A stretch of 35,862 nt of DNA from a virus. A model generated the notes under the pieces. The model searched no databases. It was not told the DNA's origin and saw only the letters and a program-made list of their open reading frames with translations. The position numbers were made by a program, and so were the translations under genes. Location of the stretch: positions 1-35,862 of IMG/VR virus record IMGVR_UViG_3300029260_000303. One strand, written 5' to 3'. This document shows, in pieces, positions 1,182-9,353 of the stretch (positions are counted from its first letter, which is position 1; each line of letters opens with the position of its first letter).

Positions 1182-1204
1182 CTTCTTTCTAGGTATTTTT
1201 TTTG

Positions 1205-1236
1205 GTGGCTCACCTTTGGTGGGTCACTTTTTTTTT
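1205..1236 (+). terminator. Rho-independent terminator overlapping groEL promoter
   Basis: GTGGCTCACC (1205-1214) pairs with GGTGGGTCAC (1218-1227) over ten pairs, two of them G-U, with a TTT loop and then nine T (1228-1236). It ends the transcript of the 106-residue gene. The groEL promoter elements begin inside the loop, so the two signals overlap. Confidence 0.85.
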
Positions 1237-1245
1237 GTATGTTTG
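1216..1245 (+). promoter_or_regulatory. groEL promoter, Bacteroidota type
   Basis: TTG at 1216-1218 and TATGTTTG at 1238-1245 match the Bacteroidota consensus TTG-N19-TAnnTTTG with exactly 19 intervening bases. The spacer is the right arm and T-tract of the preceding terminator. Transcription would start near 1252, giving a leader of about 15 bases before the ATG at 1267. Confidence 0.8.
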
Positions 1246-1266: not shown

Positions 1267-2862
1267 ATGAAAAACATACTATTCGACAAGGATGCTAGGT
1301 CCCAACTACTTGAGGGTATACGGCTGATGTCAAAAGCTGTGAAGAGTACCCTAGGTCCCTTGGGTGGGACCACCTTAATAGAGTCATCCTCTCACTTGGG
1401 TGGCATAACGGTAACCAAGGATGGTGTTACTGTAGCGAAGTCAATAATTTTTGAGGACAGGGTAATGAACTTGGCGGTACGTATAATGCGAGAGGCTGCG
1501 GAGCGAACGGCCAGTACTGCCGGAGACGGCACGACCACATCGATAGTACTGGCAGAGGCATTATCTACTATGGGCAATGATATTAGTGATGGGTTGAACG
1601 TAACTGAGCTACTGCGGTTATTATCCAAAGAGGAGGCCAATTGCGAGCAAATGTTAGACGATGTTAGTGTTGAGGTGACTGACGATTTACTATACCACGT
1701 AGCTAGGATCAGTGCGAACAATGACGAGAGTATAGGTAGGATCATCGGGGATGTATACAAGGAGGTGGGTAAGAACGGAATTGTTACTGTAGAGAATTCG
1801 AATACGCACGAGACCCACTATGAGGTAACGAAGGGGTTAAAGATAGACAGGGGTTATTCTTCTCCTATGTTCATCAACGACCAACGTAGGGACGAGTGCA
1901 TTATGGAGGACGTAAAGGTATTGGTATGTGATGGTGAGATAGGTAACATCTTGGACATTGAGAACATACTTAGACCAATAATCAGTAAAAGGGAGAAACT
2001 TTTTATACTTGCTCCATGCAGTGTAAATGTAATAAACACGTTGGCGGCCAATGTAATAAAGAATGGGTTGAAGTTGTGTAGTGTACCACCGCCTTCGTTT
2101 GGGTATCGTCAGCATGAGCTGATGCAGGACATAGCAATGAGTGTTGGAGCCACATATTTCTCTGAGAAGACAGGTGATGACCTAAGCCTAATAAAGTACG
2201 AGGACCTAGGTACGATAAAGAAGGTTATCGTTAGCAAAGACAGTACGATACTAGTACGAGACAAGGGTATAACCAATGACATAGAGCATCGTATTGACCA
2301 GTTGTGGGACCAACACAAGCTACTAGACAATGAGAGCGAGAGGGACTTTGTTGTTTCGAGGATAGCGTCCTTGTCGGGGGGCATAGGGGTAATATATGTC
2401 GGTGGGAACACTGACCTGGAGCAGAAGGAGCTATATGACAGGGTCGATGATGCTGTGTGTGCTGTACGTGCTGCATTAAGCGATGGTATACTTCCGGGGG
2501 GCGGTATTGCGTTGCTACAGCTATCTGACTACTACGGTAGTTTGCAGATAGACAACGGCACTAGTGGTGAGTTGGCTGCGGTATATAATCTCCTGCATTT
2601 ATCCTTGCGTGTCCCTATAGAAACGATGCTTAGAAACAGTGGAGTAACTCTCGACTCTTTTGACTTTGAGGAGGGGTGTGGAGTGAACCTAAAGACATCG
2701 GAGGTAGGGAACATGATAGAGATGGGTATAGTTGACCCTGCGTTGGTAACGAAGAGTGCGCTTAGGAACGCAGTGTCGGTTGCTAGTACGATCCTATCTA
2801 CAAAAACAATTATCCATAACTCGGCATCTAGTAATGCCATAGTCAGTGCAAAGAAGCTATGA
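1267..2862 (+). CDS. groEL: Phage-encoded GroEL chaperonin (Cpn60)
   Basis: A 531-residue group I chaperonin; bacterial GroEL is usually about 545. It would form the ATP-driven folding chamber with a GroES lid. Visible hallmarks are TLGP (28-31), TKDGVTVAK (50-58), the ATP-site AGDGTTT (85-91, with Asp87), the RVDDA segment holding the catalytic Asp near 395, the GILPGGGIALL loop (407-417) and DPALVTKSAL (490-499). The apical domain is divergent: the usual RGYxSPYF is RGYSSPMF, and the usual PGFGDRR motif is PSFGYRQ. The C-terminal Gly-Gly-Met tail is absent; it ends SAKKL. The start at 1267 is chosen because the longer frame would include the upstream terminator and promoter. The stop overlaps the groES ATG by four bases, so the two are co-transcribed. 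Likely substrates are phage virion proteins. Confidence 0.97.
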   Translation: MKNILFDKDARSQLLEGIRLMSKAVKSTLGPLGGTTLIESSSHLGGITVTKDGVTVAKSIIFEDRVMNLAVRIMREAAERTASTAGDGTTTSIVLAEALSTMGNDISDGLNVTELLRLLSKEEANCEQMLDDVSVEVTDDLLYHVARISANNDESIGRIIGDVYKEVGKNGIVTVENSNTHETHYEVTKGLKIDRGYSSPMFINDQRRDECIMEDVKVLVCDGEIGNILDIENILRPIISKREKLFILAPCSVNVINTLAANVIKNGLKLCSVPPPSFGYRQHELMQDIAMSVGATYFSEKTGDDLSLIKYEDLGTIKKVIVSKDSTILVRDKGITNDIEHRIDQLWDQHKLLDNESERDFVVSRIASLSGGIGVIYVGGNTDLEQKELYDRVDDAVCAVRAALSDGILPGGGIALLQLSDYYGSLQIDNGTSGELAAVYNLLHLSLRVPIETMLRNSGVTLDSFDFEEGCGVNLKTSEVGNMIEMGIVDPALVTKSALRNAVSVASTILSTKTIIHNSASSNAIVSAKKL

Positions 2863-3116
2863 GGACAATAGGGAAATATATAGCGATACGTAGGATAGAG
2901 GAGCAGGTAAAGACTGCTTCCGGACTTCTGTTATCCAGTAAGGACATGGGAGACATGCGCTACGCCAAGGGGGAGGCAGTAAAGGTCGGTCTTGAGGTGG
3001 TTGGCATAAAAGATGGTGACGTATTGTACTACGACAAGTCACGTAGCTACGTGATGGTTATAGAGGACGAGCCATATACGATTATTTCTGAAAGGGATGT
3101 CGTTGTTGTTTTATAA
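2859..3116 (+). CDS. groES: Phage-encoded GroES-like co-chaperonin (Cpn10)
   Basis: An 85-residue protein, slightly shorter than the usual 95 or so. It begins with a strand like the 'DRVLVKR' start of Cpn10 (GKYIAIRRIE). A mobile-loop-like segment follows (about 17-27, with the hydrophobic GLLL triplet expected to dock on GroEL), then a GEAVKVG strand, a KDGDVLYYDK strand and the C-terminal ISERDVVVVL strand that matches the family's 'ilreDDIlavl' ending. The ATG overlaps the groEL stop as ATGA, which means translational coupling. Gene order is groEL then groES, opposite to bacteria. The 3' end overlaps the convergent winged-helix gene by 35 bases. Confidence 0.88.
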   Translation: MRTIGKYIAIRRIEEQVKTASGLLLSSKDMGDMRYAKGEAVKVGLEVVGIKDGDVLYYDKSRSYVMVIEDEPYTIISERDVVVVL

Positions 3117-3519
3117 TTTTATTTCTTTTTTTTATCATATACCGACATATCCGTTCATTGAATGGAGACTCATCCTTGAAGATGGGGTTGTAGTTCGGGT
3201 TTTCGGTGATCTCCTCTCCTTCGATTATCCCATAGAACTGGCTTATCATCTTCTTAGCCCTATACGACAGAATGTATAGGGCTTTTCTTTTTTTAGTTTT
3301 CTCTCTAAATACATTGATCCATCCTTCTTCGGTTAGTCTTTCTATCCTATCTTTTTCCCAAGGGAACACTTGTTTGTAATCGCTAAAAACTTGTTTAGAG
3401 AAGTACCCCTCTGAAGAAAGGTATAGTAAAATTTCTAAATCCTGTAGTTTTAGCTTATATTTAGATTGGATGAATTTGCGTACTATTTTGAAGTACTTGA
3501 GATAGTCCCTATTTTTCAT
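3082..3519 (-). CDS. Winged-helix (MarR-like) DNA-binding protein
   Basis: The only convincing gene on the - strand: 145 residues, basic. Residues about 20-95 read as a winged helix: a helix with DLEILLYLSSEGYFS, a second helix, a recognition helix around WEKDRIERLTEEGWINVF, then a Lys/Arg-rich wing (EKTKKRKALYILSYRAKK). The C-terminal third is a basic extension with NPIF. The topology is MarR-like, and similar genes occur near structural genes of other Bacteroidota phages (from memory, not searched). It is divergent from the miniprotein operon with only 41 bases between the start codons, so autoregulation and control of that operon is plausible. It overlaps groES by 35 bases, and a + strand terminator lies inside it. 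Confidence 0.85.
   Translation of the reverse strand: MKNRDYLKYFKIVRKFIQSKYKLKLQDLEILLYLSSEGYFSKQVFSDYKQVFPWEKDRIERLTEEGWINVFREKTKKRKALYILSYRAKKMISQFYGIIEGEEITENPNYNPIFKDESPFNERICRYMIKKRNKIIKQQRHPFQK
3256..3294 (+). terminator. Terminator of groEL-groES operon, inside opposing gene
   Basis: AGCCCTATAC (3256-3265) and GTATAGGGCT (3274-3283) form a perfect ten-base-pair stem with an 8-base loop, followed by a T-rich tract (TTTCTTTTTTT, 3284-3294). The polarity fits + strand transcripts from groES, whose stop is about 140 bases upstream. The hairpin lies entirely within the coding sequence of the - strand winged-helix gene, where it encodes part of the wing. Confidence 0.8.
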
Positions 3520-4154: not shown

Positions 4155-4286
4155 ATGCCAAAAGTAGGGAAAAAGAAATTTGCTTATACAGCAAAAGGTA
4201 AAAAAGCAGCAGCTAATTACGCTAAAAAGACAGGTAAAAAAGTAAAAAATACAGGTAAAAAAGTAAAAAAGAAGAGTAAATACTAA
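4155..4286 (+). CDS. Extremely Lys-rich 43-residue protein
   Basis: A 43-residue protein with 18 lysines (42%). Short tandem units KKTGKKV and KNTGKKV are followed by KKKSKY. The N-terminus (GKKKFAYTAKGKKAA) resembles short basic proteins seen in many aquatic phages (from memory). The Lys/Ala/Gly composition is reminiscent of histone-tail-like DNA-condensing peptides. The stop overlaps the next ATG by one base. Confidence 0.72.
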   Translation: MPKVGKKKFAYTAKGKKAAANYAKKTGKKVKNTGKKVKKKSKY

Positions 4287-4546
4287 TGGGGGACTTAAAA
4301 AAGTGGAGAGACGAGAAATGGGTTCGCATAGGGACAGATGGTTCTATAAAAGGAGCATGTGGTACTAGCAAGAATAAGAAGAACCCTGACCGTTGTCTCC
4401 CTTTAAGTAAGGCCAAGAGTATGAGTAAATCTGAGAGGGCGGCTACTGCAAAGAAAAAGAAGCGTGAGGGTGGTAGTAAGAAGCAGTTTGTCAGCAACAC
4501 GAAGAGAGGGAAAGTAACCAAAAAAAATACTAAGCGTGGCAAGTAA
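4286..4546 (+). CDS. Small basic protein, DUF5872-like
   Basis: An 86-residue protein. The N-terminal half has the pattern WRDEKWVRIG...GACGTSK...PDRCLPLSKA followed by a helix (MSKSERAATAKKKKREGG), the layout of short phage and giant-virus proteins annotated as DUF5872. The tail is Lys/Arg-rich with a repeated KRGK. Two Cys (about 25 and 37) could bind a metal or pair. The function of the family is not known; nucleic-acid binding is inferred from charge. The family assignment is from memory of the motif. Confidence 0.78.
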   Translation: MGDLKKWRDEKWVRIGTDGSIKGACGTSKNKKNPDRCLPLSKAKSMSKSERAATAKKKKREGGSKKQFVSNTKRGKVTKKNTKRGK

Positions 4547-4553
4547 AAGTAAA

Positions 4554-4826
4554 ATGAAGTGCAACAAGGTTGTCTCTTCAGACAGGGCAGGTAAAAAAAA
4601 GATGGTGAAGGCATGCTCCGGAGGTAAGGAGAAGCTCATTCACTTTGGAGCGAAAGGCTATGGCCACAACTACTCTGCTGCGGCTAGGAAGAGTTTCCGT
4701 GCTAGGCACAAGTGTGGCACTGCTACAAATAAGCTAACGGCTAGGTACTGGTCGTGTAAGAAGCTTTGGGCAGGCAAGGGAGGATCGACAAAGAGTTCAC
4801 CAAAAAGTAGACAAGGTAAATACTAG
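4554..4826 (+). CDS. Small basic protein, DUF6321-like
   Basis: A 90-residue protein with the conserved core GGKEKLIHFGAKGYGHNYS...AARKSFRARHKCGTA...LTARYWSCKKLW (pieces, about residues 24-72), as in phage and giant-virus proteins annotated DUF6321. Several Cys residues are present. The function is unknown; the family is often found near virion genes. ATG 4554, seven bases after the previous stop, is preferred; an in-frame GTG at 4536 would add six residues and overlap the preceding gene. Confidence 0.78.
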   Translation: MKCNKVVSSDRAGKKKMVKACSGGKEKLIHFGAKGYGHNYSAAARKSFRARHKCGTATNKLTARYWSCKKLWAGKGGSTKSSPKSRQGKY

Positions 4827-5000: not shown

Positions 5001-5477
5001 ATGGCATATCAAAAATTACAAGGGATCATTGGCCTACAGGTTATACCCTCTGACTTTATAAACATTCCTAACGTTTCAGATTTAAAGCTCTCCGGTACTA
5101 CTACCGCTGCTTCGGGTCTTACTGTTGCAGGGTCAACATTTAAAGATGGCAGCGTAAAGATTGGGGACATTGTCTATGACACTACTAACTCTGTAGTAGC
5201 TAGGATTACTGCGATTACTAGTGACACGGTGCTTGCCTTAGATAACGGCAATGGTGTTGCTGTAAATATTGCCAATTCCGCTTCATTTAACATCTACAGC
5301 GACACGAACAAAGCTGCGGTACTATATGTTGGGGTAGCCGGAAATTTAAAGGTAGAGATGGCTTATTCGGGACAGACGTTGACATTTGTTGCTGCTTCGA
5401 ATGGTTATCATCCTATTCAAGTAAACAAGGTGCTATCGACAGGGACTGCTGCGACTAGCATCATAGCCCTTTGGTAG
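5001..5477 (+). CDS. Beta-rich structural protein
   Basis: A 158-residue protein, Thr/Val/Ala/Gly-rich and almost certainly all-beta. Residues about 50-95 contain a module (KIGDIVYDTT...ARITAI...TVLALDNG...FNIYS) that also appears, diverged, in the protein at 27625-28413 and is seen in many phage structural proteins. The N-terminus (YQKLQGIIGLQVIPSDFINIPN) resembles small virion proteins that decorate capsids or tails. No enzymatic motif. Confidence 0.75.
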   Translation: MAYQKLQGIIGLQVIPSDFINIPNVSDLKLSGTTTAASGLTVAGSTFKDGSVKIGDIVYDTTNSVVARITAITSDTVLALDNGNGVAVNIANSASFNIYSDTNKAAVLYVGVAGNLKVEMAYSGQTLTFVAASNGYHPIQVNKVLSTGTAATSIIALW

Positions 5478-5478
5478 T

Positions 5479-6237
5479 ATGAGTATAGGATTGGGTATAG
5501 GAATAGGTCCGGCATTTATTAAAGAGAAGACACTGGCAGTTAGTTGCAAAAGTCTTTCTTTTGATGGGGTAAATGAGTTTATAAACTGTACTAATAATTC
5601 AGCGTTTAACTTTAATGGAGGCAATGCTTTCAGTATTGAAACATGGGTAAAGTTTTCAAACTTAAGCGGTGTTAGGTTTTTAGTATCAAAATGGGCAAGA
5701 CCAACCCCTTCAGATGTACGAGCATATTATTTTGCAACAAAGAACAACAAAATAAGGTTTGTTTTATCTAGTAGCAACACAAAAATAATAATAGTAGAAG
5801 GTAATACTGCAATGAATACGGGTGTATGGTATCACGTAGGGGTAACTTTTGACGGCTCAAGTAATGCAAATGGTGTTACTTTTTACATAAACGGATCAAT
5901 TGAAAACAGCACAATACAAAGTAATACGCTAAGCGGCGTATCAACAAACACAGAACCCCTGCAAATAGGAGGACAAGATACTTTTTTTACTGCGGGACAA
6001 ATAGCAAAATCTCGCGTTTGGTCTGCTGAACTAACAGCGGCAGATATAGCGACACAGTACAACGGCGGCACGATTCAAAACAACCCCGTCAAGTCTTCTA
6101 ACTTAGTGGCAGATACAAATATAAACGACGCTACATTTGGAACGCAGTTTTCTATTCCTGACCTTACAGGGAAAACAGCAGGATATACGTCGGTAAATAT
6201 GGAAGCGGACGATATCAGCGAAACCTGTCCAACTTAA
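5479..6237 (+). CDS. LamG-like lectin domain protein
   Basis: A 252-residue protein. Residues about 25-195 read as a LamG/concanavalin A-like jelly roll: SLSFDGVNEFI, FSIETWVKFSN, the central GVWYHVGVTFDGSS..GVTFYINGS strand pair, then LQIGGQ and GQIAKSRVWSAELTAADIATQYNGG. This fold binds carbohydrates and is common in phage fibre or capsid-attached adhesins. It starts one base after the preceding structural gene. Probable role: binding host glycans. There is no signal peptide; the Gly/Ile-rich N-terminus probably anchors it to the virion. Confidence 0.85.
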   Translation: MSIGLGIGIGPAFIKEKTLAVSCKSLSFDGVNEFINCTNNSAFNFNGGNAFSIETWVKFSNLSGVRFLVSKWARPTPSDVRAYYFATKNNKIRFVLSSSNTKIIIVEGNTAMNTGVWYHVGVTFDGSSNANGVTFYINGSIENSTIQSNTLSGVSTNTEPLQIGGQDTFFTAGQIAKSRVWSAELTAADIATQYNGGTIQNNPVKSSNLVADTNINDATFGTQFSIPDLTGKTAGYTSVNMEADDISETCPT

Positions 6238-8316: not shown

Positions 8317-8547
8317 ATGGAAAAACTAACAACCGAAGAACTAATGTTTCTTCAAGAATCCACCTCTAAACTAAGTAATGCTAAGACATTTCTAGGGGAC
8401 CTAGAGATTAAGAAGCATGAGATTTTATCAGAGATAGGGACTTTAAAGGTGATGGTTCAATCAAAAGAACAAGAATTAATTAGCAAATATGGGCTAGACT
8501 CGGTCATAAATATAGAAACCGGAGAGGTCAAACAAAAAGAAAAATAA
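8317..8547 (+). CDS. Small coiled-coil protein
   Basis: A 76-residue protein, mostly one amphipathic helix (residues 4-58, Leu/Glu/Lys-rich), ending in YGLDSVINIETGEVKQKEK. Small proteins of this type are common in phages near fibre genes. Starts one base after the spanin-like gene and overlaps the fibre ATG by one base (TAATG). The function is unknown; it might be a fibre assembly chaperone. Confidence 0.75.
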   Translation: MEKLTTEELMFLQESTSKLSNAKTFLGDLEIKKHEILSEIGTLKVMVQSKEQELISKYGLDSVINIETGEVKQKEK

Positions 8548-9353
8548 TGGCAAAGATAAGCACATACGACAATGCTAGTCCTGTAGTTTTAACGGACAAA
8601 GTTATTGGTACTTCAGTAGGAGGGTCTCCAACGGATGCAACAAAGAACTTTTTGTTATCAGATGTATTGACTTTATTTCAAGGGGGAATAACCCTGGCGA
8701 ATGTTTTGACAGCAGGCAATACTGCTACAAACAATATTAATCTAACAGGAACCATTAATGCCACTACCATAGTTGCAAGCAACTCTGTAAGCTCAGGTAC
8801 AATGACCTCTTCCGGGTTAATAACAGCAGGTTCTGTCACCTCCTCTGGGTTAATAACAGGAGGGTCAGGTAGTATTCTAAACACGCTTAGTGCTACTGAC
8901 TTAACAGCAACAGCCGTTGTTACAGGGTATACACTTACTGCTTTGAATAATGTTAATGCAGTAGGCGTTATTGCATCGGGAACAGTAACAGGAGGCACTG
9001 TAACTTCTACAGGTGTTGTAAGTGCAAATAGCGCATCAATAACAACAGGTGTTGTAAGTTCCACAGTAACTGCATCGGGAACAGTAACAGGAGGCACTGT
9101 AACTTCTACAGGTGTTGTAAATGCAAATAGAGCTTCAATTGCTATTAACGTTGATACTCCATCGATAAGTTTAACAAGTATAAATCCACTTTTAAATCAG
9201 AAGATAAGCATATCGGGTATTCGTAGTTTTGCAGATGACGCTACAGCTAAAGCCGCTTCCCCTAATCCACTAGTGGCAGGTGATGTTTACATAACTGATG
9301 GAACAGGTGCTGCTCCTTTGAATATTGCAGGTATCTTAATGGTTGTAGTATAA
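8547..9353 (+). CDS. Tail fibre-like protein with tandem repeats
   Basis: A 268-residue protein. The N-terminus (KISTYDNASPVVLTDKVIGT) and C-terminus (AGDVYITDGTGAAPLNIAGIL) are typical of phage tail fibres, and the middle (about 55-215) is a run of Ser/Thr/Val/Gly-rich beta repeats of the form SGTVTGGTVTSTGVV. At DNA level, a 50-base identical block recurs at a 99-base (33-codon) offset (8972-9021 and 9071-9120). Likely a trimeric beta-helical fibre for host contact. No chaperone or enzymatic domain seen. Confidence 0.82.
   Translation: MAKISTYDNASPVVLTDKVIGTSVGGSPTDATKNFLLSDVLTLFQGGITLANVLTAGNTATNNINLTGTINATTIVASNSVSSGTMTSSGLITAGSVTSSGLITGGSGSILNTLSATDLTATAVVTGYTLTALNNVNAVGVIASGTVTGGTVTSTGVVSANSASITTGVVSSTVTASGTVTGGTVTSTGVVNANRASIAINVDTPSISLTSINPLLNQKISISGIRSFADDATAKAASPNPLVAGDVYITDGTGAAPLNIAGILMVVV
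8972..9139 (+). repeat. In-frame direct repeat in fibre gene
   Basis: 8972-9021 is repeated without change at 9071-9120, and the match continues with three mismatches to about 9139. The 99-base offset is an exact 33 codons, so gain or loss of a unit keeps the frame. Confidence 0.9.

Follow-up and report, generated by a model that had tools for sequence, protein, structure and literature searches.

The locus analysed here raises the question whether two adjacent viral genes, one resembling groEL and the other groES, specify a working chaperonin, where these genes came from, and whether their products form a chamber specialised for phage proteins, as an initial annotation had proposed. The window, that is, the whole stretch of DNA analysed, comprises 35,862 bases and corresponds to an entire IMG/VR virus record; judged against relatives, it is probably a fragment of a genome of about 60 kb. 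It also encodes TerL, a portal and a virion structural protein, all recognised by PHROG matches, which provides a phage context. The two genes very probably constitute a phage chaperonin operon, predicted to fold client proteins without host GroE, and an old, fast-evolving and vertically kept trait of one lineage of Bacteroidota phages. The following features were found in the chaperonin region:

1204-1228, plus strand: terminator-like hairpin of the upstream gene (terminator scan; RNA fold of -17.3 kcal/mol, z -5.8)
1216-1245, plus strand: promoter of the Bacteroidota type, read from the sequence (TTG at 1216-1218, a spacer of 19 nt, TATGTTTG at 1238-1245)
1267-2862, plus strand: groEL (Cpn60), 531 aa, with the full set of catalytic aspartates, GGM tail absent
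2859-3116, plus strand: groES (Cpn10), 85 aa, mobile-loop LLL after Gly22, no roof hairpin of the E. coli type
3082-3519, minus strand: convergent ORF (PHROG 17028, function unassigned), a neighbour outside the chaperonin operon
3256-3283, plus strand: terminator-like hairpin ending the operon (terminator scan; fold of -16.1 kcal/mol, z -6.0)

The sizes of the two products and their junction had been described before and are exact to the base; the groEL stop codon and the groES start codon overlap in ATGA at 2859-2862. A promoter and terminators of its own had also been ascribed to the operon, and such elements were indeed detected. The first hairpin closes the upstream gene and directly precedes the groEL promoter, the TATGTTTG box of which is placed 29 nt before the groEL ATG. 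The arrangement TTG-N19-TATGTTTG conforms to the Bacteroidota promoter consensus. Of 77 related loci, 76 carry a TANNTTTG box in the 60 nt preceding groEL, compared to 3.4 expected from shuffled sequences, and a scan for sigma-70 promoters gave no signal above shuffles. The second hairpin sits about 140 nt beyond groES, within the convergent ORF, which itself runs 35 bp into the 3' end of groES. This ORF thus holds the terminator hairpin in antisense, and its product is 36% identical to that of an ORF annotated as 'repressor protein' in Podoviridae sp. ctfjg026.

The larger protein matches Pfam Cpn60_TCP1 above the curated cut-off (1.3e-52, residues 22-518) and the PHROG groEL family (2.5e-122). 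Its AlphaFold model (pLDDT 86.2) could be superimposed on the GroEL structure 8wuw over 514 residues (Z 43.5, rmsd 4.0), indicating the three-domain chaperonin fold. Asp87 in AGDGTTT and the Asp near 395, which had been named as ATPase residues, are both intact; together with D490 they align with D87, D398 and D495 of E. coli. The ATP-site residues T28, G30, P31, D52, G53, G86-T91, D395 and D490 are invariant among 22 phage members (the window and 21 relatives), and the same residues, with the central stretch counted from D87 to T91, are also invariant in bacteria. Full-length homology, ATP and catalytic residues, fold and the adjacent groES gene assign the protein to the Group I chaperonins. 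The absence of the Gly-Gly-Met tail was confirmed by alignment, but it counts for little as a hint at specialisation, since it is family-wide and several bacterial GroELs lack this tail as well.

For the smaller protein, matches to Pfam Cpn10 (2.3e-7, above the curated cut-off) and to the PHROG groES family (2.5e-10) were obtained. The model (pLDDT 90.5) resembles Thermus Cpn10 over 83 residues (Z 10.1, rmsd 2.8), and the best viral structure match is an 'uncultured virus' GroES of likewise 85 aa (A0A221S3G2), which is 54% identical. In the mobile loop, G22-L23-L24-L25 corresponds to G24-I25-V26-L27 of E. coli, and T19, G22 and L25 are invariant among 25 phage GroES members. The basic residue R34 of the phage GroES does not vary either. 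In the alignment, the roof hairpin of E. coli GroES faces a gap of about 10-12 residues. This hairpin is not a defining feature of the Cpn10 family as a whole; some Bacteroidota GroES proteins are shortened too, and the lid of phage DAC19 is equally short.

The invariant ATP site, the good fold matches and the retained mobile-loop tripeptide make an active GroEL-GroES machine the best explanation, and judged from these sequence features the complete operon is probably functional. A single transcript would start at the Bacteroidota-type promoter, with groEL translated first and groES following by ATGA coupling. GroEL would assemble into heptameric rings binding non-native protein, GroES would close a ring by means of the hydrophobic tripeptide in its mobile loop, and the folding cycle would be powered by hydrolysis of ATP at D87, D395 and D490. 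Proteins that the phage synthesises late in infection, especially those of the virion, are the likely clients and would be folded independently of host GroE. From the promoter type and the related phages only, we infer that the host belongs to the Bacteroidota. Phages equipped with such a full set need not depend on the folding machine of the host.

The pair of genes had been described as uncommon in phages and their order as reversed. To define the distribution, IMG/VR was queried with groEL; 316 stretches encode relatives, and the best 80 of these were analysed. A groES gene was recognised in 77 loci, in each case on the 3' side of groEL and on the same strand, at distances from -4 to about 2,100 nt, and nearly all GroES proteins in these best 80 loci are 85 aa long. 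No groES was found in the remaining three loci, all of which are incomplete records: one (L052) breaks off inside groES, while the sequences of the other two (L044 and L061) stop about 1.5 kb and 0.5 kb beyond groEL. Among bacteria, groES precedes groEL in 78 of 78 scorable loci. The order is therefore reversed when compared to bacteria, but within the phage clade both the pair and its order are the rule. The arrangement is real, fixed in the clade and already on record; annotated phages, namely ctfjg026 (MW202828) and Flavobacterium Elemovirus phages, share the same order, and one paper, with reference to Marine et al. 2017, mentions homologs of both GroEL and GroES in some phages (PMC7185714). 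Other phages (immuto, Calle_3, cthkR962 and DAC19) show the opposite order, groES before groEL, and no groES was detected near groEL in several Vibrio phages and in phage EL. In Maribacter phage Panino, an ORF annotated as 'hypothetical protein' (7688-7954 in L003) matches the GroES model, so that the order in Panino is groEL-groES as well.

The space between the two genes appears to be a preferred site for the insertion of small genes. L025 harbours, between groEL and groES, an ORF (5023-5874, about 280 aa) that encodes a class II (D/K/N) aminoacyl-tRNA synthetase domain (PF00152, 1.2e-17), accompanied by two more unassigned ORFs. Similar ORFs are found inside the gap in L038, L042, L046, L048, L050, L060, L062 and L072. 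Together, these make up the loci in which the two genes lie about 1.5-2.1 kb apart. Another subgroup carries a 2OG-Fe(II) oxygenase; in L029 the protein has 185 aa (2271-2828; PF13640, 7e-14), and similar ORFs are present in L018, L022, L030, L031 and L045.

Since GroEL and GroES are genes of bacterial type, the locus could in principle stem from recent capture of a groE operon from a host or from a mis-joined contig. A phylogeny placing both genes inside one host genus had been named as the outcome that would point in this direction. In a maximum-likelihood tree of GroEL (LG+C20 PMSF), which sampled 23 bacterial and 14 other phage GroELs beside the clade, the window sequence and 28 phage sequences formed a single clade (support 100/95) outside all 23 bacterial GroELs. 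The 14 other phage GroELs also fell outside this clade; those of Elemovirus and Panino are on long branches, and that of phage EL is on a very long branch at the drawn midpoint root. Among the 591 confirmed bacterial matches listed in a pattern scan, which came from Bacteroidota and many other phyla, the best identity was 36-37%. A recent capture was rejected because the clade lies outside every sampled bacterial GroEL and is at most about 37% identical to the bacterial matches listed; the gene order opposite to that of 78/78 bacterial loci argues against it as well. The groEL-groES block is, moreover, common to about 80 viral contigs and one complete phage genome. Capture or a mis-join is thus highly improbable.

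One record behaved differently. In L166 (CAKLQH020000021, 'Acinetobacter phage MD-2021a'), groES precedes groEL between bmrU and dgkA, and the GroEL is placed on a zero-length branch beside Acinetobacter. This looks like a bacterial chromosome filed as phage, and the short Listeria 'phage' and Enterococcus IME_EF3 records may be similar cases.

The closest annotated system, ctfjg026, shares with the window the groEL-groES order and the convergent neighbour, its genes carrying the labels groEL and chaperonin 10 kd subunit. It is a distant member, in which groES likely starts with an ATG 4 nt after groEL, while the two genes overlap in the window. Its TerL, portal and virion proteins are 65-75% identical to those of the window. 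For TerL and portal the values are 73-75%, but only 52% for GroEL and 51% for GroES, pointing to rapid evolution of a chaperonin that the lineage retains. Bacterial GroEL is among the slowest-evolving proteins. Faster divergence of GroEL would also fit relaxed constraint, of which the ATP site shows none. In the Flavobacterium Elemovirus phages (e.g. NC_055853), groEL and groES are adjacent in the same order as in the window, and the structural genes are 45-49% identical. Their GroEL is different, however, being 33% identical, lying outside the clade and keeping L234 and R231, and their operon is inverted relative to the structural genes. These phages have been isolated and are related in their structural genes, albeit with another GroEL branch, which makes it practical to test for clients of a phage chaperonin. 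A second Elemovirus protein, gp30 (12744-13286 in L002; NC_055853), which adjoins TerL, is also labelled co-chaperonin GroES; this label may be wrong, since the GroES search of the NC_055853 locus did not report gp30.

The proposal of a specialised chamber had been based on divergent apical motifs. Of these, RGYSSPMF differs only mildly from E. coli RGYLSPYF. PSFGYRQ aligns with E. coli PGFGDRR, and its two main changes, D283Y and R285Q, are fixed across the clade. The apical domain has kept 25/69 of the bacterially conserved residues, proportionally fewer than the equatorial domain with 49/84 (p 0.009). Among the divergent phage GroELs tested, however, the apical domain is almost always the least conserved one, and for this reason apical divergence alone is no pointer to a special chamber. 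Moreover, the groove is not enriched among the lost apical positions, 3/7 bacterially conserved groove positions and 39/89 other apical positions being kept. Apical divergence was consequently discarded as evidence for a dedicated chamber. Compared to bacteria, the groove changes R231L, L234E, V263A (S in one member), V264A and Y203L/M are found in essentially every member of the clade, while Y199 (W in one member), F204 and L237 are retained. In E. coli GroEL, L234, L237 and V264 are contacts to GroES (PMC5653362). With a glutamate at the contact position 234, binding of the lid must differ or be weak. Taken together, the idea of a specialised chamber is partly supported: the groove changes fixed in the clade, the roofless lid and the lost ring contacts are in its favour, the generality of apical divergence and the missing enrichment in the groove are not. 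In the operon proposed here, the groove for lid and substrate may have been re-tuned to the phage's own GroES.

The same groove residues bear on the possibility that the phage proteins are not autonomous but mix with or modify host GroE, by forming hetero-oligomers or by inhibition. Phage subunits would be produced amid abundant host GroEL, and T4 gp31 acts by joining host GroEL (PMC6318259). In the clade, a complete GroEL with intact ATPase residues is always accompanied by its own GroES, and the differences at the bacterially near-invariant positions L234, V263 and V264 argue for a private match between GroEL and GroES. Mixing with host GroE is therefore considered improbable. Gp31 resembles the window GroES in having no GroES roof loops (PMC6318259) and in sharing the Cpn10 fold (Z 7.8). 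Gp31 caps the GroEL of the host, whereas the window phage supplies its own, and the window lid is, at 85 aa, shorter than gp31 and more similar to bacterial Cpn10 (Z 10.1).

An autonomous chaperonin could work with two rings or with one. The alignment revealed that the residues providing contacts between the two rings in bacteria are not conserved in the phage clade. In bacteria, K105 is found in 57 of 62 sequences (R in the rest), A109 in 61/62 and R452 in 59/62 (K in the rest), while position 461 is E or D and position 464 V, I or L. In the clade, the residues are mostly E/D at 105, P/D/E at 109, mixed at 452 and 461, and D/E at 464. The window has D105, D108, E452, T461, D463 and S464 at the places of bacterial K105, A109, R452, E461, S463 and V464. 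The single-ring mutant SR1 carries R452E/E461A/S463A/V464A (PMC5653362), and all four of these sites are changed in the window GroEL, R452E included. An ancestral GroEL that was resurrected and bears S463A/V464E forms a single ring (PMC12696368), and weaker binding of GroES renders single-ring GroEL functional (PMC5575113). From the changes at the SR1 sites, the often acidic residues at ring contacts in the clade, the ancestral V464E protein and the effect of lid affinity, it was suggested that the clade, devoid of the bacterial interface between rings, may use one heptameric ring with its own GroES, weak lid binding allowing release. Such a variant is compatible with the operon explanation as a sub-mechanism. 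On the other hand, the loss of inter-ring residues is not significant compared to other equatorial sites (0/3 versus 68/113 kept at the level of identity, p 0.07), and it was not accepted as statistical proof of a single ring. Eight equatorial positions lose hydrophobicity in a similar way, only two of which are inter-ring, and residues 460-467 align beside gaps. A double ring using different contacts is also conceivable. Because of the p value, the general apical loss and the missing enrichment in the groove, the single ring is regarded as a tentative reading with the chances somewhat against it. The more specific version, a single-ring Group I chaperonin that keeps a roofless GroES and in which L234E, V264A and other changes weaken the lid for release from one ring, is considered less likely than not. 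If true, it would be a natural counterpart of engineered functional single-ring GroEL-GroES systems.

Phages EL, OBP and AR9 also encode their own GroEL-like ATPases, and the chaperonins of OBP and AR9 are single rings (PMC9598537, PMC5934643). If the clade does combine one ring with a dedicated lid, it would stand apart from OBP and AR9. EL, OBP and AR9 chaperonins act without a co-chaperonin, while groES is always present in the window clade; given this partner and the remote position of EL in the tree, the window chaperonin does not belong to this type. The virioplankton chaperonins of Marine et al. 2017, as described in PMC7185714, resemble the pair in the window in that both homologs occur in phages. 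Bacterial groESL operons, as in E. coli and Bacteroidota, have in common with the window two adjacent gene families on one strand and a conserved ATP site; they differ in groES being first (78/78), in a GroEL that is 34-38% identical, and in the inter-ring and groove residues. What makes the locus interesting are the changes in groove and ring interface throughout the clade, and not that the genes are present or how they are ordered; the pair itself is not new. A large clade with uniform gene order has diverged at the residues holding lid, substrate and second ring, and thus offers natural material on whether the release of lid and client needs a second ring.

Two further regions of the window contain ORFs of unusual composition. 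The ORF at 8547-9353 (268 aa) has a repetitive middle part rich in Thr, Ser, Gly and Val (TSSGLITAGSVTSSG-like) and is possibly tail-fibre or adhesion-like. At 4286-4826, two adjacent short ORFs (86 and 96 aa) specify proteins very rich in Lys and Ser with basic tails.
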